A DNA stretch of 23,978 nt from a virus, in the IMG/VR virus record IMGVR_UViG_3300033182_000158, positions 1 to 23,978 of that record; one strand, given 5' to 3'. Numbering within the stretch: the stretch's first letter is position 1; each line of letters opens with the position of its first letter. Both the position numbers and the translations under genes were made by a program. Below the pieces are notes generated by a model. It was not told where the DNA came from and searched no databases. It saw only the letters and a program-made list of their open reading frames with translations. This document shows positions 890 to 23,975 of the stretch, one piece after another.

Positions 890-3800
890 TTATACTTTTC
901 CTACGACTACTTCTATTACACCCTTGTTATCGTCGTCTTTATTTTCAAGGGCTTTACCTATTACTGTTCCAACGCCTGGACTGTTACTTGCAACAGCATA
1001 ACCAGGAATTGCTGCCGTTACTAACAAGTCACCTTTCTTAACTCTACCAAGTACTTTACAAGGAACACGTCCAGTTAACGCTAAGTCTACCACATATTCT
1101 GCTTTTAAATCTGCGTTCATCAAATGCGCTGGATTTGTTGAAACAACGCCTGCTACTCTATGATCACCTTTAGAACTTGTTGCAGTAACTTCTGCTTCTC
1201 CGCCAAATACAAGAACTGTTCCTGGTTCGTAATCTGCATCAGCAATGTAACGTTCTGCCAAGTCAGCATATTTTGCTTGAGTAGCAGTACCATTAAATAC
1301 TGTTGCATACATTGTATTCCAACGATCAGTATTTGAACCAATGTTCTGTGTGCCAACACCGTTTGGTAAAATGCTTCCTGCAACATCTGCTGTAAATGTA
1401 ACAGTATCTGTTGCAGCATCACCTATTGTAGTATTTCCATTGACTGTTAAATTTCCGGTTATTGTAGTGTTACCTGCAATAGTAGTATTACCAGTTGCGC
1501 CGTCAACACTAAACTTAGTTACTTGTGTTGGGCTAGTAGCGTCTTTGATAGTAAAGTCACCTGCCGAAGTAATGATTACATTTCCGTCTATGTTAACATT
1601 GTCAGTAAAGTCTACACTTGTAGTCTTAACAGTTACACGCGGTGTACCATCTGCAATAAGCAATATTGTATTTGCAGCAGCACCTGTAAATCCGTTACCT
1701 GCTCCTAAACCAATGCCTGTAGCATTTGCGGCTGCGTCTCCTTTTTCACTTTCGCATTCAATAAAATTAGCATATATCCAGTCAGCAGCAACAAATCCTT
1801 CACCTGCATAGCTAGAACCAGCTTGTGAAGCACTTTCGGCAGTTATACCAGTATCACCAACATCGATGCTGCCAGGAATGTCTGTTATTAAACTTGCACT
1901 TGTTGTGCCAGCAGCACTTAGTATTGTTGCGCCACCTGGAGTTTTTAAACTAATAGTTGTACTAGCAAGTGTTAATGCATCATATCCGCCTAATTTATAT
2001 TTACTAGCATCAAGTGTGCCGTCTGCTGTACGTCTTGCAATAGTGTTAGGACCGGTTCCTGTCGATACTGCTGTGGTTGCATATAGCCCTGTATCCGTTT
2101 TAATTAACGCAGAACCTACTGTTGTTGTTGCAGTAGCAGTAGTAGGAGTTCCTAAACTAGTACTAGTTGTAGTATTTGTTATAGCACTGCTAGTATTAAA
2201 AGATATTCCAGCCGTTGGAGTACTTGCAACACTTCGTACATATACCGTATTTTCTAAATAAACAGTTCCTTGTACTGTACCGGTTATTGTATTTGCGCCT
2301 TGTGTTTGAGATAATGTATTACCGTCAGTAACACTAACACGACTTGGGAATACAAGTTTTACTATATCAGGATAAGTCCATTCTCTACTATTAAAATCTC
2401 TGTCTTCTAAGCCTGAACCGTATTTTAAAACGTCGCTGTATGCAACATTTTCTGGATCACCTACTGTTTCAACAGTACCTGTACCTACTCCTGTACTTCC
2501 TGATTTTCTAAATACCAATCCTACAGTATTAGAACTAGCACCAATTAAAGTAAAGTTTGTAGTGCCTATAGTTTTAATCATGTAATGTGTATCATTATTA
2601 GCAGCAGTCAACGAAGTTGCATTAACTGTTGTTCCAGCAGTTTGTCTGCCGTATACACAATATTGTCCAATGTCTTGTAATTCTGCAAATACTAGCCCGT
2701 TGTCTTTAACACGAACATATCCGCTTGTAGTTTCAAAGTTCCAATCGGAGAACTTAGCAAGACCTAAATCTGCTTGAACTTTTGTAGCACTTCCACTCCA
2801 ACCTGATACAGCATTGTCTTCGTCAAAAGTATTTGCATTTTGCATTGAAAGTTTACTTTGAGAAATAGCAGCTGAACTATTGACATCGGCATTTACAATA
2901 GTATCATTTTCTATTTGGAAATCAATAGTTGCGCCAGCGGCTGTTCTTGAAACGGACCAGTTAATAACGCTGGTTCCTGCTTCACTAGCATTTGCCCATT
3001 CATCAACTGGCCCATCTTCGATAACAGAAGATACAGAACCACCTGGTATGTCATAAATTGTTTCGGTCGTTAAAAATACACCTAACGTAGGAGTATAAGT
3101 TATTATATTAACTGATCCTAAAATAGGATCTGTAGCTGTTTCAACATCTACAATTACGCCTGTTTTTGTAGGAGATCCCGATGCCGGCAATCCAATAGTA
3201 TTTCCAGCACTCCATGTTCCTCCACTAGGAGGAGTAACTATAATACGCTTTTTACCAGTCGCAACAAACAGATCATTCGCTGCGGTAGAATTTAGTTCTG
3301 TATTACGTAAATCTTCTAATTGGTCAAAATCATTAACTTTACCGTCCACATAATTTTTATTAGTAGCAGCAGTACCATCTGATCCTGGCAACTCTAGATT
3401 AGTAATTCTATTGTTTCTAGAACCGTCTGGTTGCGATCCCATATCGATATCGCCTTCCATTGCTGTCTCACCGTTTAGCGCCAAGAAGCCTGGACCTATT
3501 CTGTTGCCACCCGCTCCTGGAGGGTCAATTGGACTTTCTGATTTTACATTATAACCTAATACCCTATTAATATAATTGCCTGTTGCCTTTTCTGTTGGAA
3601 CAGCACTGCCTGATTCGTCTGTGAACCCGTCATCTGCTGAGAATTCATCGATTGTAACACCTTTCTTAAAGCCCAATGAATTAGCACCTGTTAAACCGAT
3701 GTCACCAGCAAATTCAATTGAACCTGTTGCTTGGTCTACGGTGAAGAACTTACCAACTCTAAAGAAGCCGTATTGATCCGTAGACATCCAGAATACACGT

Positions 3801-6800
3801 CCTTTTCTACGTTCCCATACTTGAGCACTTGTGGCAGTAGGAGCATCGGTGTATGCATCTGCTAAAGCATTTTCAGGATCACCTAACAATACGTTTGGAT
3901 AGTTAGAATCATTAAATCCGCCAGTACCTATTTGTGTAAAGTCATGACCTGTTGCACGGCATAATGAAATAGCGATAGTAATTTCAGCAGTTGCTCCTGT
4001 AGTTAAACCAGCTCTAATAACTCTACTACTTGCTGGAACAGCAGAGTTGAGTCCAGATGGTTGTGGGCTTGGTTTTACATTTGTTCCTGCAACGTCAGCA
4101 AAAGTAATATATACAAATGCTCCGCTATCGTCATAGTTTGTAACTCGATGCATTTTGCCGTCCCAGTGGAAAATCATACCACCAGCATAACCTGCATCTC
4201 CTGGTTGAAGACCTGCGTTATCTCTTAACAAACGTGTGACATTGTCAGTATTTGTAATTTCTAAAATTGCAAGTTTAGTATCTCCCGCTGTTGATCCGTA
4301 ACCTCCACTTAGGTTTGCAATATCAACTTCTAACTGAATAAAGTCATAACCTGCTTCCATGCCTGCTAAGATCTCATCAGCAGCGAGCGGCTGGCTTAAC
4401 GAATCTGCATTTGAAAATGATAAACTTCTGTATGTTACTAAATCAGATTCGTCGAAGTTAATAGCAGTCGATGGTCTTGTTTCTAACCTTGCCGGATCTC
4501 TTACTCCTTCAAAAGATTGGGTAAAGTTATGTCTAAATTCTATAATTGTTCCATTGCCTACAGTATCTTGTAATGATCCATAAAAATCATTTGCTGATGC
4601 TTCGTCTGCTCTTATGTCTAATTTATAGACTACATAACTTTGTGTGATTTGTGGCACAAGTCCGTCGTTCCAAACTGTATCCACATCAAATGTTAGATTA
4701 GAACCGGTCCATCCTGCAACGCTTCCGCCAGCAGTAGTCAATGTGTCTCCAGGAGCATATCCGTAGCCTGGCGCCAACGGAGTAACACTTGTTGCCGCAC
4801 CTGCTCCGTCAATAACAACAGTAAAGGTTGCATTTACACCGCCACCTGTAACTGGCATTATATAAGTTCCAGCAGTTCTTGTTCCATCTGCGCCGCTTAT
4901 CGAAGCATTATCAATAGTTTTAACACTACCAACTGCAACGTCACTAGCAGACTCTCCTATGTTCCCGTCATTATCGGTATCGGATATATTCTGAACTTGT
5001 GAAATAATATAATTTAATGACCCAGTTATTCCACCATGATCTATAGTAATTTGACTATTTACTGTTGGAGGTACAGCCATATCAGTTACATAAATGGTTG
5101 TATCGTCGAACGCATTTGGATAATCGCCGATAATGCTAAATGCCTTACAAGGTTGAATCATAGGATCTTTTAATGTAACCTGATCAGGTATTTCATTTGG
5201 ATCTGCACCTTCTGCTACTAATCCAAAGAATCCGTAACCATTTGATCCGTTGGTACTTCTGATCTCTGAACCGTTCTTAGCGTAGTAGGCAGCATGACAG
5301 TAATATGTAAACATCGACACCATTTCTGATAAAGCACCGTTTGTAGTAACAAGACCGTACCCTAGGTCATTAATCTGTGTAAAGTCGTTACCAAGCATTG
5401 ATCTGTTACCAGCAGTTTGTAAGAAAATATTTTCTCCTGTGCTTCCGGTATATCCGCTGCCACTATTTGAACCTGAATCTAAATAAATTGTTACAGTACC
5501 TGCTGCACTATCATAATTTGAAATAGCATTTACTTGATAACGAACGCCGTCTAAGTAAAAAGGACATGGTAACTCTGGAGCACGAATGAACAATCCTTGA
5601 CCTTGTTCGCTCTCTAACTCTAGTTCAAATGCCGAATTGACTGCTGTGATCTGTGTAGGTATATTTCCAACAAATGCGTCTACAAACATACCACCTGTAA
5701 ATGCTTTGCGATTTCTGCTTCGAGAGAAACTAGAACCGGTTTGTATATACGGTGATTTAGTTAAAATTTGTCCTTCTGGATCTAGCACAACCATAAATCC
5801 GCCATGCCCTTGTACAGTTACATTACGTACAATAGTGGCATCACTCATCATGAATACATCTACACCATCGTCGCTATTACGTTTTGGCGGATTGTAACTT
5901 GGATTAAATGCATATGTAATTATATCGATTAAATTGCCTACAATTGAAACTGTACCTGATTCTCCGGAACCTACAGAAATGTCAGGTGCTACTGAGGTAT
6001 TTTGTGTCGGCGCAACACTAATTAATAACGATGATGCTAGAGTCGAAATGTAGCTAATTGCAGATGATGTTATTGTTTTATCATCACCAAATTCAGCATC
6101 GTCGAATTGATTAATGTAGTTAGAATAATAATCACCTTGTGCTTCTAATGTATATTCTTGTCCGCCGCGAACTAAGTCTGTACTGATAGCATCGATGATT
6201 AATCCAACGTCTCTTGCACACTTATCTTGGTCATAAACAAATGTAACTGTATTATCTAAGTAATCAATAGTACTGTCTATTATAGTTGATCTACTAGAAT
6301 TAATAGCAGTTTGCGCAGATTGCAAAGTTGCAGACACGCCTAGCGAAGATAGATTTGGAGTTGTAGCAGTTAAGCCAGCAACAGTTCCGTTGTCAATCGC
6401 ATCGCTTATTATTGTTACTAATGCTATTAATCTGTTACCTTCTGCACTAGTTGCATTTGCTCCTGTAGTATTTTGTGTGTCTAAATTAGTCGAAGATTTA
6501 GTAACAGTTACTCCTCTTACTATTTGATCAACAATTACTCCTAAACGTCCATATGATGCAACAGTTGCAGCAGTTTCTCCTACTCCTAATTGACTTGCAG
6601 TTCCTACAAAATAACTTGTAGCAGAAGTTACAGTAGCACTATCGCCACCGTACAAAATATCATATGTTAATGCATCAACGATATAGCCTACGTCTCTAGA
6701 ACACTTAGTTGTATTATAATCTAGGAACGGATAGTTGTCGCCGATCCATGCAATTATTTCTGAACGTATGAAGTCTCTGTTATTCTGTAATCTAGTTGCC

Positions 6801-9800
6801 GCGTCGTCTGCATTGCCGTACCCACTTGGTAAGATACTTGGTGCTGGAAAAGAAAGAGCATCTGGAGTATTATTATCTATAATATCTACAATTTCATTAA
6901 ATGCACTGTTTGATCTTGTTTCAGCAGTTCCAGTTATATCTGGTAATGCTGCAACTAAATCTTTAGCACTGTAGTATGTAGTACCTGGGGAACCTACGGT
7001 TACTGAAGAACCAGTTAATGCTGCTATAGTATTAGTTTTTTCAAAATTTAAATTATAAGCATTGTTTGCACGTTGATATGCTAAACCTGCTGTAATAGCA
7101 TTATAGTTAGTTCCTAATGCTATATCGTAACCAACAGCATCTAAGATTAATCCAATATCTCGTTCGCATTTAACTTTACTATACAATAAATCTTGATAGT
7201 TATTATTAATATAGTATAATACCTCAGACGCTATAAATGATTTATTTTGTTGAAGAACTTCGGCTGCTACCGGATAGTTGCCAGAATTAAATGGTAAAGA
7301 AACTGTATCTGGAAGTACGCTAACATTACGTTCAGGATCTGTTAAGTAATGTCTACCAAAGTATCCTTGGAATTCTCCGTTTTGATTATAAAAAGGAGCA
7401 CCTGCAGTTGTAAGTGTTAATCCGTCAAACTCTGCATCTCTGTAGAAATAAATGCTGGACCAAGGAGACTGCGATACACGATCTTTCGGACGTATAATTA
7501 CACGTCTAAATTCGTCACCTTTTAAAGAAACATTATTAGCAAGTCTAATTGGTAAATCTTCTTCGTATGTTCCTGATTCTACAAATATAGTAACTTGTTT
7601 GGTTTTAACAAAGTTTCCGTATTTTACAGGTTCACCTACTTCAAAATCTTTACCGTTTAATTGTACTAATTGGAAAGTATCATTATTAGATACCGTTCCA
7701 TCATTTGAAGTTAAACTTACAATTCGACCTTGCGCACCTGACACTACACCTACCATTATCTTACCAGGCAGTGTATCTATATTTGTTGGATCACCCTGGT
7801 CTACATATGTACGACTACCATTATCTAATACAAGTTTATACGTACTACCGTAAACCACATCACCACCAACTTCGATACCATTTTGAATAATATTCAATAT
7901 TAAATCAAATCTGTTACCTATTGCTGCTCGTTCTGTGCTTCCTGCATTTGGACTATCGAATGTCTGTGTTATTTTTATAGTCTCAAAGTCTTCGTTTCTA
8001 GGTTGGTACACAACACCCATCTTACCGCCAGTAGTATAGTTAGTATAAGCACTAATATCCCATAATTGTAATAAGAATGGATCTGTGTATAATTCGAAAG
8101 TATCAGCATCGATAACTTTAACATAAGCAGATTGACCTTCGATTTCTGTCATACCACCCATGTCTTTAAATATAACTTGTTCGCCGTCAATTAACCCGTG
8201 ATTGGTAGTTGTGGTTACACGAGCTCGTTCTTGACTAACTCCTGTTCTTGCGACTGAATCGATTGATTTTTCTCTGTATAGTTTGTTTTGTAAAACAGCA
8301 TCTACTATATCTCTAGTAACAGTTATCGCATCTACCGTTTCGTTGATTTGCTGTGAACCAATTGCATACCTTGCACTAGTATTAGAATAATATCTTTCTG
8401 CTGCTTGTCGTGTTAGATAATTTGCTGTTAAACCTCTTTTTATATCAAAGCGAATAGCGTCAAGAATTAACCCTGTATCACGCTCACATAAGTCAATATT
8501 ATAAACAAAATCTGGATACGTAAATGCAATATATGCTGTAATTTCTTTTTGAATGTATTCTCTGTTTATTTTAATTAAGTCATGTGCTTGTGTATATACC
8601 GGAGTATTAATTTGTGCTATTGTTACATTCGCAGTAGAATCTCCATTGTCTTTTGTAACAGTTTGAAAATACGGACCTGGTTCTGCTGGAGAAGTAGTAA
8701 TAATTTCTTCTGCTCTTTTTGCAGCGGCATTAATTGTACGATACGCATAGTTAAGTGCGGATCCTTCTTTGCCCGGTGGCACACCGGTCATTAAGTCGTC
8801 GCCATCCATACTTACAAAAATATTAACTGTAGATGAATAACCAGAGTTATCTACATAAAATTTAGTTGCCGCTTGTAAATCGTCTGAACCGTTCACAACA
8901 CCAAATCCTGATACATCGCCTGGGTGATCTGAAAGAGTTAACACTCCGGTCATTGTATCGCCTTGTCTACGAACAACGCTCTTACGTGGCATAGCAACAT
9001 CTGATAAGAAGTTTCCTTCTAGTGTGCTGTCATAAGCAGCATCAGTCATTGTATGTGTATCATCAGGATCAATCGTACCTGACAATTGAATTTTGTCGAT
9101 ATCTACTGCTGTATCGTCTTCTTGAGTTGCATCATCATAATCTAAAAATACTGCTAGTTGATCTGTACTAATATATCTTAAAAAATAAACTGGTTGTGCA
9201 ACACCTGTTCCTGCACCTACACCTGTAGCAACAAAACGTGTCCCTACAGTATTTTCGTCAGCACCAATAGAAACAAAGTTTGTTGATCCTAAATCTTGAA
9301 TTATATATGTTGCACCTACAACAAAAGACCCAGCTGCAACTTCAGTTTTTAAGTTTAACGGGTCATTATATATAGAATTAAAAACAAATGCAGTTCCGTT
9401 AATAGTAGAGTCGTAACCGTGAGATAATACTTCGATATTTCCACTAATGTAACGATTAATCTCTAATATATACTGATCTGTATTTCTAGGTTCTGCCGCA
9501 ACACGAATTGGTAATCCAGAACTAATATAACGTCTGTCTGCATAACCTTTAGTAATAACAAGGTCATCGATAGTAATACTTGAACTATGAGCAGAATTAT
9601 AATTGCTAACAGCAGTTGCAGATATAGCAACATTGGCAATAGCATTATTTCCTACATTTAACGGACCACCTAATTGTGGTTTTAAATCATCTGATAATTT
9701 TGTAAATGCCGTAGAAATTACTAATTTACCTGGAACAGAGTAACTAAATGTAATCGTATCCGCTGCATCTTCATCTAAGGCAGAGTTAGATGCAAGCGTT

Positions 9801-21984: not shown

Positions 21985-22060
21985 TGGTGCCAACACCTGG
22001 AATTGAACCAGGGACACAAGGATTTTCAGTCCCTTGCTCTACCTACTGAGCTATGTTGGC
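21985..22060 (-). tRNA. tRNA-Phe (GAA)
   Basis: Acceptor GCCAACA/TGTTGGC pairs perfectly, discriminator A, encoded CCA. Anticodon loop CTGAAAA gives GAA. T-arm CCTGG-TTCAATT-CCAGG is perfect. It is the last tRNA of the array. Confidence 0.95.
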
Positions 22061-22063
22061 GGC

Positions 22064-22139
22064 TGGGGTGAAAGACGAGACTCGAACTCGCAACGACTGG
22101 TACCACAAACCAGTGCTCTACCATTGAGCTACAATCACC
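22064..22139 (-). tRNA. tRNA-His (GTG)
   Basis: Anticodon loop TTGTGGT gives GTG. The extra G at -1 opposite C73 is the tRNA-His identity element. Encoded CCA. The acceptor GTGATTG/CTTTCAC has two adjacent U-U mismatches (positions 5 and 6). Three nt separate it from tRNA-Phe. Confidence 0.85.
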
Positions 22140-22145
22140 ATAAAC

Positions 22146-22221
22146 TGGCCCGCCCGGAGAGATTCGAACTCCCGTCCACCTGGTTCGAAGCCAGGCACTC
22201 TGTCCACTGAGTTACAGGCGG
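22146..22221 (-). tRNA. tRNA-Arg (TCG)
   Basis: Acceptor CCGCCTG/CGGGCGG, discriminator G, encoded CCA. Anticodon stem CCTGG/CCAGG with loop CTTCGAA, anticodon TCG. T-arm GGGAG/CTCTC with one G-U. Confidence 0.93.
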
Positions 22222-22225
22222 TTAT

Positions 22226-22303
22226 TGGAGTGGCGAGTCGGATTCGAACCGACGGCTTTAGAGTTTTGCAGACTCTTCCCTTGGGCCTCTCGGGCATCGC
22301 CAC
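22226..22303 (-). tRNA. tRNA-Cys (GCA), copy 1
   Basis: Acceptor GTGGCGA/TCGCCAC, discriminator T, encoded CCA. Anticodon loop CTGCAAA gives GCA. Differs by one base (D-stem) from the copy at 23817-23894. Confidence 0.93.
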
Positions 22304-22309
22304 AATGTT

Positions 22310-22384
22310 TGGCGCAGGACCAGGGATTCGAACCCCGTCTTTCGGTTTTGGAGACCGACGTGCTGCCGTTAACACTAGTCCTAC
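22310..22384 (-). tRNA. tRNA-Gly (TCC), copy 1
   Basis: Acceptor GTAGGAC/GTCCTGC with one U-G pair, discriminator G, encoded CCA. Anticodon stem TCGGT/ACCGA with loop CTCCAAA, anticodon TCC. A diverged second copy is at 23901-23975. Confidence 0.92.
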
Positions 22385-22389
22385 TAATT

Positions 22390-22475
22390 TGGTGGGCAAG
22401 GTAGGAATCGAACCTACTCAACACGAGGTAACGGATTTACAGTCCGCCGCGACTCTCCAACTTCGCCGCTTGCCC
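22390..22475 (-). tRNA. tRNA-Tyr (GTA)
   Basis: Acceptor GGGCAAG/CTTGCCC, discriminator A, encoded CCA. Anticodon loop CTGTAAA gives GTA; a long variable arm is present, as expected for bacterial tRNA-Tyr. Confidence 0.95.
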
Positions 22476-22481
22476 AAATTC

Positions 22482-22538
22482 TTATTGGAAGTTAGACTTC
22501 ATCCACTTCCAGTATTCGCTTACGTCATTGTAACACAT
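22482..22538 (-). CDS. 18-codon micro-ORF after the attenuator
   Basis: The ATG at 22538 is preceded by a textbook SD, AAAGGAG, seven nt upstream, and the frame MCYNDVSEYWKWMKSNFQ ends in TAA at 22484-22482, just before tRNA-Tyr. It lies immediately downstream of the terminator hairpin, so it is translated only if the terminator is passed. It is rich in aromatic residues and Cys. It may be a real micro-peptide, a ribosome-loading site that protects the RNA, or a second leader. The SD strength is the main evidence. Confidence 0.5.
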   Translation of the reverse strand: MCYNDVSEYWKWMKSNFQ

Positions 22539-22556
22539 TGTATTACTCCTTTCAAT

Positions 22557-22589
22557 AAAAAACCCCCGGAGTATTTCTACTTCGGGGGT
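22557..22589 (-). terminator. Intrinsic terminator of the tRNA attenuator
   Basis: On the minus strand ACCCCCGAAGTA pairs with TACTCCGGGGGT around a GAAA loop (12 positions, one A-C mismatch) and runs straight into a T-tract. On the plus strand no T-tract follows, so the direction is clear. Its left arm can instead pair with an upstream arm at 22618-22631. Confidence 0.85.
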
Positions 22590-22631
22590 CTTGTGTAACT
22601 TTGTACTAGGACTAAATCACAAGAGACCCCC
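22584..22631 (-). promoter_or_regulatory. Antiterminator of the tRNA attenuator
   Basis: Arm A GGGGGTCTCTTGTG (22631-22618) pairs with arm B CACAAGACCCCC (22595-22584): 12 bp with a 2-nt bulge, 22-nt loop. Arm B shares ACCCCC with the terminator's left arm, so the two folds exclude one another. Arm A overlaps the last codons and stop of the leader ORF. Confidence 0.7.
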
Positions 22632-22685
22632 TTCGCTCCATAGGCGAATGCAATAAAACATGTTATGCATTTTCTGAGTATTCAT
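22617..22685 (-). CDS. Leader peptide ORF of the attenuator, 22 codons
   Basis: The ATG at 22685 follows AAGGA with 7-nt spacing and the frame ends at TGA 22619-22617. The peptide is MNTQKMHNMFYC followed by IRLWSEGGLL. Codons 19-22 and the stop form arm A of the antiterminator, so a ribosome finishing the leader would cover arm A and let the terminator form; a ribosome stalled at codons 7-12 would leave it free. His, Phe, Tyr, Cys, Arg and Gly, the six specificities of the tRNAs downstream of the terminator, all occur in it. An upstream in-frame ATG (22700) lacks an SD. Confidence 0.6.
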   Translation of the reverse strand: MNTQKMHNMFYCIRLWSEGGLL

Positions 22686-22705
22686 GATTGTGTCCTTCAT
22701 ATAGT

Positions 22706-22713
22706 TATTTATC
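22706..22713 (-). promoter_or_regulatory. Late promoter box before the attenuator leader
   Basis: GATAAATA, identical to the box before the giant structural gene, lies 20 nt upstream of the leader ATG and just after tRNA-Gln. A start 6-7 nt downstream would give an RNA beginning near the leader SD. Confidence 0.55.
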
Positions 22714-22716
22714 GTT

Positions 22717-22790
22717 TGGCTGGGGAACGTGGACTCGAACCACGATTGACGGAGTCAAAGTCCGCTATCCTACCATTAGATGATTCCCCA
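22717..22790 (-). tRNA. tRNA-Gln (TTG)
   Basis: Acceptor TGGGGAA/TTCCCCA, discriminator G, encoded CCA. Anticodon stem GCGGA/TCCGT, loop CTTTGAC, anticodon TTG. T-arm CGTGG-TTCGAGT-CCACG. Confidence 0.94.
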
Positions 22791-22798
22791 ATAATTTT

Positions 22799-22871
22799 TG
22801 GGCCCTGTGCGATTCGAACGCACGACCAAAAGATTAAAAGTCTTCTGCTCTACCAGCTGAGCTAAGGGCCC
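22799..22871 (-). tRNA. tRNA-Lys (TTT), no encoded CCA
   Basis: Acceptor GGGCCCT/AGGGCCC is perfect, discriminator A, followed by AAAA instead of CCA, so the end must be added by a nucleotidyltransferase. Anticodon loop CTTTTAA gives TTT. Confidence 0.94.
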
Positions 22872-22884
22872 TTAACAGTCTTAT

Positions 22885-22912
22885 ATTATACGTCTTATAA
22901 AATGAAAGTCAA
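22885..22912 (-). promoter_or_regulatory. Sigma-70 promoter before tRNA-Lys
   Basis: TTGACT at 22912-22907, 16-nt spacer, TATAAT at 22890-22885. The expected start lies a few nt before the tRNA-Lys 5' end. It would drive tRNA-Lys, tRNA-Gln and read into the attenuator. Confidence 0.7.
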
Positions 22913-22924
22913 GTGTTTTTGGTA

Positions 22925-23000
22925 TGGCGGAGAGTGAGGGATTCGAACCTCCGTCTTCCGGGTTATGAGCCCGGTAGTCTGACCACTGACGTACCCCGCG
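22925..23000 (-). tRNA. Met-type tRNA (CAT), degenerate and partly initiator-like
   Basis: Anticodon stem CCGGG/CCCGG with loop CTCATAA gives CAT; encoded CCA. The 5' end CGCGGGG and the GGG/CCC anticodon stem are as in bacterial initiator tRNA. The 3' acceptor strand ACTCTCC does not match it: positions 1, 3 and 7 mismatch. The T-stem has an A-C mismatch and the D-stem a C-U mismatch. It may be a chimera or a decayed gene. Confidence 0.6.
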
Positions 23001-23002
23001 AT

Positions 23003-23147
23003 AAAAAAATTTAGTAGTAGCATGGTTTGCTATTCTCTTGCCGATCGATGTGTGCAAGTCTATGACTGCACGTTACTAGTATCACGATCCTTAAGCCTCG
23101 AACAAGGTTTGGCTTGCGGGCCTCACGAGCCACGCTACTACTAAAAA
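23003..23147 (-). ncRNA. Structured RNA of unknown class within the tRNA array
   Basis: A 16-bp stem (23145-23130 with 23025-23010; one G-U) closes a domain of about 145 nt that ends in seven U residues (23009-23003). Inside are a hairpin at 23071-23052 (GTGCAGTC / GACTTGCAC, one bulged base, AUA loop), an outer helix GATCG/CGATC (23089-23085 with 23047-23043) and smaller possible hairpins. It starts right after the CCA of tRNA-Glu and ends just before the Met-type tRNA, so tRNA processing would release it. No long ORF fills it. T4 encodes two stable RNAs (C and D) of similar size in its tRNA cluster; any relation is only by analogy. Confidence 0.7.
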
Positions 23148-23223
23148 TGGTACACCCTAGGGGATTCGAACCCCTGTAACATCCGTGAAAGGGATGTATC
23201 CTAGGCCTCTAGATGAAGGGTGC
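23148..23223 (-). tRNA. tRNA-Glu (TTC)
   Basis: Acceptor GCACCCT/AGGGTGT with a terminal G-U, discriminator A, encoded CCA. Anticodon stem CATCC/GGATG, loop CTTTCAC, anticodon TTC. T-arm AGGGG-TTCGAAT-CCCCT. Confidence 0.94.
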
Positions 23224-23230
23224 TTAAACT

Positions 23231-23307
23231 TGGTCGGGCATGAGAGATTCGAACTCCCGACCCACTGGTCCCAAACCAGTTGCGCTACCAGACTGCGCTA
23301 ATGCCCG
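23231..23307 (-). tRNA. tRNA-Pro (TGG)
   Basis: Acceptor CGGGCAT/ATGCCCG, discriminator A, encoded CCA. Anticodon stem ACTGG/CCAGT, loop TTTGGGA, anticodon TGG. Confidence 0.94.
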
Positions 23308-23320
23308 TATTCTTTACTTA

Positions 23321-23755
23321 TTAAAAATTGTCATTAAACTGCGGTCTTTTTGAACTAAGTTTTGCAATCACTTTATATTGTTCCCACGCTGCTTTTACGG
23401 CAGGCTTATCACCAAGTTCGTTCTCAGGAACAAACGTTTCTAACCAGTAGTATGGCATGCGTCCAGGATGGGCGCCAAACTTTCGTGGCTGATGAATCTT
23501 GCCTGCATTATAAAGACTAATACATGCATTTCGATATACAGTATTTGCCTCTTCATCGCTCATATCGGGTTCAGCGTCTTCCCACTCTGGATTACTCAAA
23601 CCACCATACCGATAACCTTCCCAAATCCGTTTCCACTGTTCATCGTTAGTCGGATCAAAGTCAGTACGAGCAACGATAACAATAACATCTTGCTCAAGTA
23701 CTTTACCTTCTACAATATCTCGCAAACAGCGACTGAAACTTAGTCCAATTTTCAT
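23321..23755 (-). CDS. Hypothetical protein, 144 aa
   Basis: The product starts MKIGLSFSRCLRDIVEGKVL, followed by a hydrophobic strand VIVIVARTDFDP and an acidic, Trp-rich body (EQWKRIWEGYRYGG, then NPEWEDAEPDMSDEEAN). It resembles small conserved hypothetical proteins found in many tailed phages, but I know no function for it. AGAGGAA precedes the ATG. It is the first gene after a perfect host-type promoter and probably begins the transcript carrying tRNA-Pro and tRNA-Glu, so it is likely expressed early. Confidence 0.8.
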   Translation of the reverse strand: MKIGLSFSRCLRDIVEGKVLEQDVIVIVARTDFDPTNDEQWKRIWEGYRYGGLSNPEWEDAEPDMSDEEANTVYRNACISLYNAGKIHQPRKFGAHPGRMPYYWLETFVPENELGDKPAVKAAWEQYKVIAKLSSKRPQFNDNF

Positions 23756-23780
23756 AATGTTCCTCTGTTACTGTGTCTTT

Positions 23781-23809
23781 ATTATAAACTTGTTAATAGT
23801 TTATGTCAA
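23781..23809 (-). promoter_or_regulatory. Perfect sigma-70 promoter before the 144-aa gene and tRNA array
   Basis: TTGACA at 23809-23804, 17-nt spacer, TATAAT at 23786-23781: exact consensus. The expected start is about 20 nt before the ATG at 23755. It sits just after the second tRNA-Cys. Confidence 0.85.
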
Positions 23810-23816
23810 CCTAGTT

Positions 23817-23894
23817 TGGAGTGGCGAGTCGGATTCGAACCGACGGCTTTAGAGTTTTGCAGACTCTTCCCTTGGGCCTCTCAGGCATCGCCAC
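23817..23894 (-). tRNA. tRNA-Cys (GCA), copy 2
   Basis: Identical to copy 1 at 77 of 78 positions; the change turns a D-stem C-G pair into U-G. Acceptor, anticodon GCA, T-arm and CCA are intact. Confidence 0.93.
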
Positions 23895-23900
23895 AATGTT

Positions 23901-23975
23901 TGGCACAGGGACACAGATTTGAACTGCGCCTTTTGGTTTTGGAGACCAACGTGCTGCCGCTAACACTATCCCTGC
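23901..23975 (-). tRNA. tRNA-Gly (TCC), copy 2
   Basis: Acceptor GCAGGGA/TCCCTGT with terminal G-U, discriminator G, encoded CCA. Loop CTCCAAA gives TCC. T-arm CGCAG-TTCAAAT-CTGTG has one G-U. It is clearly related to copy 1 but differs at many stem positions with pairing kept. Confidence 0.9.

Follow-up and report, generated by a model that had tools for sequence, protein, structure and literature searches.

Attenuators of the trp/his/ilv class carry leader peptides with a run of one to three kinds of control codon, and T-box riboswitches are terminator switches that respond to uncharged tRNA. What phages gain from their tRNA genes has been a matter of debate for decades. As far as the accessible parts of two recent sources go, phage tRNAs replace host tRNAs that are attacked in infection (PMC10264068, eLife 2023; PMC11555353, Nat Commun 2024), and such attack gives a phage a reason to sense tRNA loss. 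Here we describe a phage locus that is very probably a ribosome-mediated transcription attenuator of a tRNA operon, one that monitors many tRNAs at once. It has the parts expected of the trp/his/ilv class, namely a leader ORF with a Shine–Dalgarno sequence and a frame conserved in relatives (translation is not shown), a mutually exclusive antiterminator and intrinsic terminator that share a segment, control codons that fit, with exceptions, the function of the downstream genes, and a geometry in which a stall at the control codons leaves the antiterminator 5′ arm (arm A) free and a ribosome at the stop codon covers it.

The window, that is, the whole stretch of 23,978 bases analyzed here, is a phage contig (a virus record) whose minus strand encodes tail-fibre, DNA ligase, phosphoesterase, and other phage genes, together with thirteen tRNAs at 21985–23975. 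The order on this strand is tRNA-Met, a promoter-like site, tRNA-Lys, tRNA-Gln, Shine–Dalgarno sequence, leader ORF, arm A, a 22-nt gap that is the loop of the A:B pairing, arm B, the terminator (to 22557), an 18-codon ORF, the Tyr, Trp, Cys, Arg, His, and Phe tRNAs, and the phosphoesterase gene, which has a promoter-like site of its own (Table 1). The leader runs from an ATG at 22685 to a TGA stop at 22619–22617, and TTGACT-16-TATAAT (22912–22885) is the closest promoter-like site upstream of it. The first-pass annotation, made from the sequence alone, had proposed the arrangement of Shine–Dalgarno sequence, 22-codon ORF, arms A, B, and C, and T-tract, with A:B and B:C excluding each other through the shared segment, and both sequence and folding bear this out. 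It had further placed six tRNAs after the terminator; Tyr, Cys, Arg, His, and Phe stand, but the second is tRNA-Trp (anticodon CCA) and not Gly, which improves the match because the leader contains a Trp codon. With Trp in place of Gly, all six amino acids are present in the leader as had been claimed, at codons 7, 10, 11, 12, 14, and 16.

Table 1. Features of the tRNA attenuator locus and its controlled block, in minus-strand order
Feature	Position	Strand	Basis or value
Sigma-70-like promoter TTGACT-16-TATAAT, before tRNA-Lys	22885..22912	-	11/12 consensus positions; consensus match only
tRNA-Lys (TTT), upstream of leader in the window, downstream in relatives	22799..22871	-	
tRNA-Gln (TTG), directly upstream of leader	22717..22790	-	
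Shine–Dalgarno GAAGGA, 7 nt before ATG	22693..22698	-	sequence
Segment 1 AATCATGA	22682..22689	-	MFE fold
Leader ORF, 22 codons MNTQKMHNMFYCIRLWSEGGLL	22617..22685	-	homologous frame in ten further contigs
Control codons 7–16 (H N M F Y C I R L W)	22638..22667	-	
Small hairpin TTCGC...GCGAA in leader (CIR..SE codons), family-conserved	22632..22648	-	sequences of relatives
Arm A, antiterminator 5′ arm GGGGGTCtcTTGTG, overlapping codons 19–22 and stop	22618..22631	-	
Arm B CACAAGACCCCC, partner of arm A, or of arm C via ACCCCC	22584..22595	-	
Intrinsic terminator hairpin B:C, stem ACCCCCGaAGTA-GAAA-TACTcCGGGGGT	22562..22589	-	-20.7 kcal/mol
T-tract of terminator	22557..22562	-	
18-codon ORF MCYNDVSEYWKWMKSNFQ after terminator, SD AAAGGAG	22482..22538	-	sequence
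tRNA-Tyr (GTA), controlled block	22390..22475	-	
tRNA-Trp (CCA), controlled block	22310..22384	-	
tRNA-Cys (GCA), controlled block	22226..22303	-	
tRNA-Arg (TCG), controlled block	22146..22221	-	
tRNA-His (GTG), controlled block	22064..22138	-	
tRNA-Phe (GAA), controlled block, final tRNA ahead of phosphoesterase gene	21985..22060	-	

The correspondence in the window has its exceptions. No corresponding tRNA is in view for N8, I13, and L15, and the Arg control codon is CGC, yet the anticodon of the tRNA-Arg is TCG, which counts against the match. The Met, Lys, and Gln tRNAs come just before the leader here but after it in relatives. The upstream region had also been read as holding a late promoter box, for which we find no good evidence; in relatives, the leader is immediately preceded by a TTGACA-17-TATAAT promoter whose spacer is GATAAATAACT, and we therefore reject a late promoter and favor a relic of a sigma-70 spacer, the −35 element of the leader promoter being missing in the window. 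Because the block is rearranged in this way and that element is lost, tRNA-Lys and tRNA-Gln of the window would escape control.

Several other features of the window array were recorded alongside. The tRNA-Trp/tRNA-Cys pair occurs twice in nearly identical copies (22226–22384 and 23817–23975), likely a recent duplication inside the array. Between tRNA-Glu and tRNA-Met (23010–23140, minus strand), a stretch of ~125 nt has complementary ends (GTAGTAGC...GCTACTAC) followed by TTTTTTT; it has no match in Rfam and is possibly an unrecognised small RNA, and the related contig L002 too has inter-tRNA stretches with self-complementary ends. The 18-codon ORF behind the terminator resembles MTAEEYWKWIHANVQ, which is located after the block-1 terminator (see below) in L113 (about 2605–2652) and L139, and both peptides contain EYWKW. 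Finally, a 144-aa ORF within the array (23321–23755, minus strand) is without a PHROG match; it has 22 relatives in viral contigs, with a large tRNA array nearby only in L177/L178, and as a path to relatives of the locus these 22 loci yielded no related array.

Folding with and without arm A available, which had been put forward as a check, gives the proposed alternatives in all seven distinct leader sequences of the family (see below). In the absence of a ribosome, arm A is covered by pairing with an upstream segment, and the terminator is present; in the MFE fold of the window, segment 1 pairs with 22622–22615 and covers the 3′ half of arm A. With arm A masked by a ribosome at the stop codon, only the terminator (−20.1 to −22.1 kcal/mol) and at most a small extra hairpin are found. 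When a ribosome is stalled at the Arg codon and arm C has still to be transcribed, the fold is A:B, at −19.3 to −24.3 kcal/mol, the window value being −24.3 kcal/mol with the upstream part masked. The window terminator folds with a z of −3.6 and the full leader with a z of −3.3. Once arm C is present, the equilibrium favors the terminator over A:B, stalled states included, and the model thus needs A:B to form first, co-transcriptionally. The spacing is constant across the family: arm A starts at codon 19–20 in all, two to three codons behind the last control codon (16–17), and the stop codon lies inside arm A or a few nucleotides behind it.

From this geometry we infer the following sequence of events, for which no transcript, ribosome, or mutant data exist. 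RNA polymerase would transcribe the short leader ORF with a ribosome close behind. When all needed charged tRNAs are present, the ribosome would reach the stop codon and cover arm A, B:C would form, and transcription would end before the tRNA block. When a tested tRNA is short (in the window His, Phe, Tyr, Cys, Arg, or Trp), possibly because host tRNAs are cleaved or decay in infection, the ribosome would stall 3 to 12 codons before arm A; arm A, left free, would pair with arm B once this is made, no terminator would form, and the tRNA genes for the same amino acids would be transcribed. Without translation, segment 1 would hide arm A and transcription would end. Leader translation, stalling, termination, read-through, and the physiological trigger are all inferences.

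A search with the phosphoesterase led to L002 (the same contig as L083), in which MTTMMKHIQQYCIRWFSEGGSVS, together with an antiterminator and a terminator, interrupts a 24-tRNA array. Across 2.9 million viral contigs, pattern scans returned L087, L092, L103, L106, L113, L118, L128, L109, and L139. In total, ten further IMG/VR contigs carry a homologous leader, within a tRNA array in every one of them, and represent six distinct leaders (L083, L087, L092, L109, L139, and the L113 type, the last in five contigs), or seven with the window. The frame, arms A, B, and C, and the T-tract are kept in all. Relatives that keep the terminator but lose arm A or the frame, which would have refuted the proposal, were not seen, since frame, arm A, antiterminator, and terminator are retained in all seven distinct leaders. 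Pattern matches without tRNAs, including L191 in a helicase-like gene, were rejected as chance, as was the single match in GTDB genomes (L095, also without tRNAs). Against 50,697 phage records, leaders searched as DNA and by tblastn gave only tRNA matches, nothing, or chance peptides, except for the leader of a megaphage described below, which found itself and one weak match in a megaphage relative. The array of L002 also holds, in its block 1, a GOLLD RNA at 1885–2344 (185.9 bits) with a tRNA-Ser inside.

Pairing between the arms is likewise conserved. In an alignment of five close relatives, ten A:B pairs persist and pairing is 100%, with a single two-sided change (GC to AU in L139) and two wobbles; sliding the A:B partner lowers pairing to 22 to 72%, and B:C is 98% paired. 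The L083 type and the window/L113 type differ over most of the A:B sequence and yet retain the pairing. Covariation, which had been suggested as a check, is modest in the close relatives (shuffle control, 109 of 500). These structures might serve mainly in the processing or stability of the tRNA precursor, for example as an RNase III or RNase E site, with termination incidental; long tRNA precursors do require processing, and the A:B duplex is long in some phages. We regard this as scarcely credible, as the hairpin is invariably followed by a T-tract, each block has a single terminator of this kind, and processing has no role for a translated leader with a matched codon set.

Across the phages of the family, the set of amino acids in the leader matches the set of downstream tRNAs. 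The L083 leader core MMKHIQQYCIRWF is precisely the set of its ten downstream tRNAs (Trp, Ile, Tyr, Lys, Gln, Cys, Met, Arg, Phe, and His; 10/10), and the corresponding leader of L087 (leader 2) is again 10/10, counting a tRNA-Tyr that ARAGORN missed and that was read from sequence. In L113 and L139, neither core (QQKHMQKHICIRWF and MMKQIKQHCIRWF) contains Tyr, each being equal to the set of nine downstream tRNAs (9/9), and block 2, the block downstream of this leader, is without tRNA-Tyr in both; in L139 tRNA-Tyr is found in block 1, as is probably the case in L113, where a tRNA-Tyr-like gene was read from sequence. The presence of Tyr in leader 2 tracks that of tRNA-Tyr in block 2 in all seven leader-2 sequences. 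In L109, where only the Trp, Cys, Met, and Phe tRNAs remain downstream, Lys and Tyr are gone from the core, yet H, Q, I, and R persist in it, and L092 retains R and H codons though the matching tRNAs were not found. Label permutation gives P = 5e-6 to 6e-6 for each exact case and 0.024 when only the window is considered; as the lineages are related, the values lack independence. Chance is excluded as the source of the family set match, and a correspondence that the first-pass annotation had called suggestive only becomes the strongest evidence once relatives are included. Neither ARAGORN nor the Rfam tRNA model at gathering score picked up the tRNA-Tyr genes of L183 (about 7520–7607) and L190 (about 3990–4077), both on the array strand, and phage arrays such as these may hold further unlisted tRNA genes.

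The short ORF could still be an ordinary small phage protein gene with an ordinary terminator, placed in the array by chance and matching it by coincidence, given that small ORFs with terminators are common in phages and that 22 of 192 strong terminators elsewhere have an upstream ORF able to pair with a terminator arm. Unlike a folded protein, however, the N-terminal half of the leader changes in order (MMKHIQQY, QQKHMQKHI, MMKQIKQH, and QKMHNMFY) while its set is largely kept, and none of about 123,000 same-length windows of real proteins gives an exact set match. Also against an ordinary gene are a shift of the C-terminal frame that spares arm A and the match of unrelated leaders to unrelated arrays, both detailed below, and we consider it very unlikely. 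The attenuator reading is extended by a second leader, which in the L113 type, L139, L087, and L092 precedes block 1, the upstream half of the array (Asn, Ser, Asp, Gly, Thr, Leu, Pro, Ala, Val, Glu, ...), and has its own terminator and a strong A:B. This leader 1 is unrelated to the first and spells the complementary amino-acid set. In L113, all 20 residues of its core LTLTTVEYSTLGSSNPGADV fall in the block-1 set (P = 6e-6), which includes a Tyr-like gene and a Glu gene seen only by covariance model. The L092 leader 1, TFVLTLDTWTPGSENPAGSL, is strongly diverged and spells mostly the same set without Tyr, the tRNA-Tyr of L092 being in block 2; the L087 leader 1 is an exception in that it contains Tyr although tRNA-Tyr is in block 2. 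In a leader–array cross-table, Jaccard indices are mostly 0.69 to 1.00 for a leader's own block type and 0 to 0.14 for the other block, with 0.44 for the reduced array of L109. A one-base insertion in the L139 leader 1 shifts the last codons and leaves arm A intact, which suggests, from sequence comparison, that the leader end is kept as RNA and the front as codons; in the L184 leader 1, a 1-nt indel alters the C-terminal frame and retains arm A.

We also scanned de novo for terminators that precede three or more tRNAs and have a short ORF upstream; leaders with no evident similarity to this family came to light in L059 (a gp23-bearing phage), L053/L072, L049, and two uncultured megaphages of 634 to 642 kb (LR745206 and LR756502), which we take to be LAK-type phages. 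In the megaphages, the arrays comprise Asn, Arg, Leu, Val, Ile, and Thr (and Met) and are matched by the leaders TTMNLNMTMNLTLNVVNITLCNIR and KTMNLNMNLNTLTVVNNTLCIR: 23 of 24 residues of TTMNLNMTMNLTLNVVNITLCNIR lie in the array set {N,R,L,V,I,T,M}, a match that none of 119,059 windows equals, and 18 of 22 fit in the leader of the diverged relative. The L059, L053/L072, and L049 leaders contain nearly all amino acids and have a strong A:B; their set match alone is weak, so that they count for anatomy and not for specificity. Leaders of this kind would respond to any shortage, and an attenuator of mixed amino acids might accordingly sense general translation speed or ribosome-stalling compounds. 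Such a sensor would not need the split by which the two leaders of the family divide the amino acids along two tRNA blocks, nor would Tyr in leader 2 need to follow the block-2 tRNA-Tyr as it does throughout, and we judge it unlikely compared with an attenuator that reads the tRNAs it controls.

Among strong terminators, an ORF with A:B pairing is found in 17 of 24 before at least three tRNAs, versus the 22 of 192 elsewhere. Some of the 17 are related loci, L059 is counted twice among them, and for many loci the presence of a leader was the reason for retrieval; this is a description and not an unbiased rate. Furthermore, A:B pairings were counted by a script that fails to detect the E. coli trp leader (textbook sequence), in which segment 2 lies behind the stop codon, and the test thus detects only attenuators with arm A at the ORF end. 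Nothing comparable was found in fourteen array-bearing isolates (S-CREM1, B614, EspYZU15, ZPAH1, DLP_6, Goe8, CC2, Asesino, AhFM11, 44RR, J2-1, Slicko01, Syn30, and KKP_3711). Vibrio phage KVP40 (L202, 3738–3851) and three relatives (L205, L206, and L207) have a large tRNA array preceded by a terminator and a conserved 37-codon ORF (79 to 88% identity over 33 residues; in KVP40, 19 different amino acids), with only a weak antiterminator, and this group is a lead, the only cultured candidate. In L049 (3367–3468) and L039 (about 3625–3729), related leaders ending in LWAICEDGIRGNE and LWLVVCEDGARGSE, with terminators, lie near Cys/Trp and Trp/Gly/Cys tRNAs and may be another attenuator family.

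On balance, we lean toward a broader reading, in which large phages of several unrelated kinds carry tRNA-array attenuators with one leader peptide reading many tRNA species, and in which, in one lineage, two leaders split nearly all 20 amino acids between two operons, so that the phage measures the host's whole decoding capacity and supplies whichever half is missing when it is needed. The use of only one or two codons for each tRNA suggests tuning to severe tRNA loss, such as would be expected from tRNA-cleaving defences or host tRNA decay, a trigger that is inferred. Sensor codons that list the controlled tRNAs, and follow them upon loss or relocation, would mean that phages expect particular tRNAs to run short and reply with those tRNAs, which fits such defences and decay better than a fixed compensation of codon usage. 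The purpose of phage tRNAs would thereby become testable by reporter.

Leader-based regulation of phage tRNA genes was not found among 5.39 million open papers (subscription papers and preprints were outside the search), in line with the earlier statement that no described attenuator of a phage tRNA array was known to the first-pass annotation. The accessible parts of the two studies of phage tRNAs in infection (PMC10264068 and PMC11555353) concern the tRNAs themselves and not a leader that regulates their genes. GOLLD and other large RNAs of phage tRNA arrays (RF02032; PMC12286853) occur in the same kind of array, as in L002, but GOLLD is a separate large RNA outside the attenuator. A T-box (RF00230) is similar in being a terminator switch in response to uncharged tRNA; in the phage system the sensor would instead be the ribosome on the leader ORF, and covariance-model searches gave no T-box match in the window, nor in six relatives at gathering score. 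The window matches the Rfam His_leader (RF00514) only weakly (25 bits; gathering, 49), and the element works like that leader without being a member. The proposal that the locus is a trp/his-type attenuator sensing the tRNAs it controls gains support from the relatives, the set match, and the second attenuator, with the regulatory step itself inferred. With the trp/his/ilv attenuators of enterobacteria, the phage leaders share a leader peptide, control codons, an exclusive antiterminator and terminator, and a hairpin that prevents read-through without translation. They differ in being found in phages, in controlling tRNA genes rather than biosynthetic enzymes, in placing arm A within the ORF end where segment 2 of trp follows the stop codon, and in devoting one or two codons each to about ten tRNAs. 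The principle is classical; what is new, as far as could be checked, is its target, its breadth, and the way in which two leaders divide the code. Attenuation, otherwise concerned with one to three amino acids, would come to cover about ten tRNAs in a single leader and would have tRNA genes as its controlled output.
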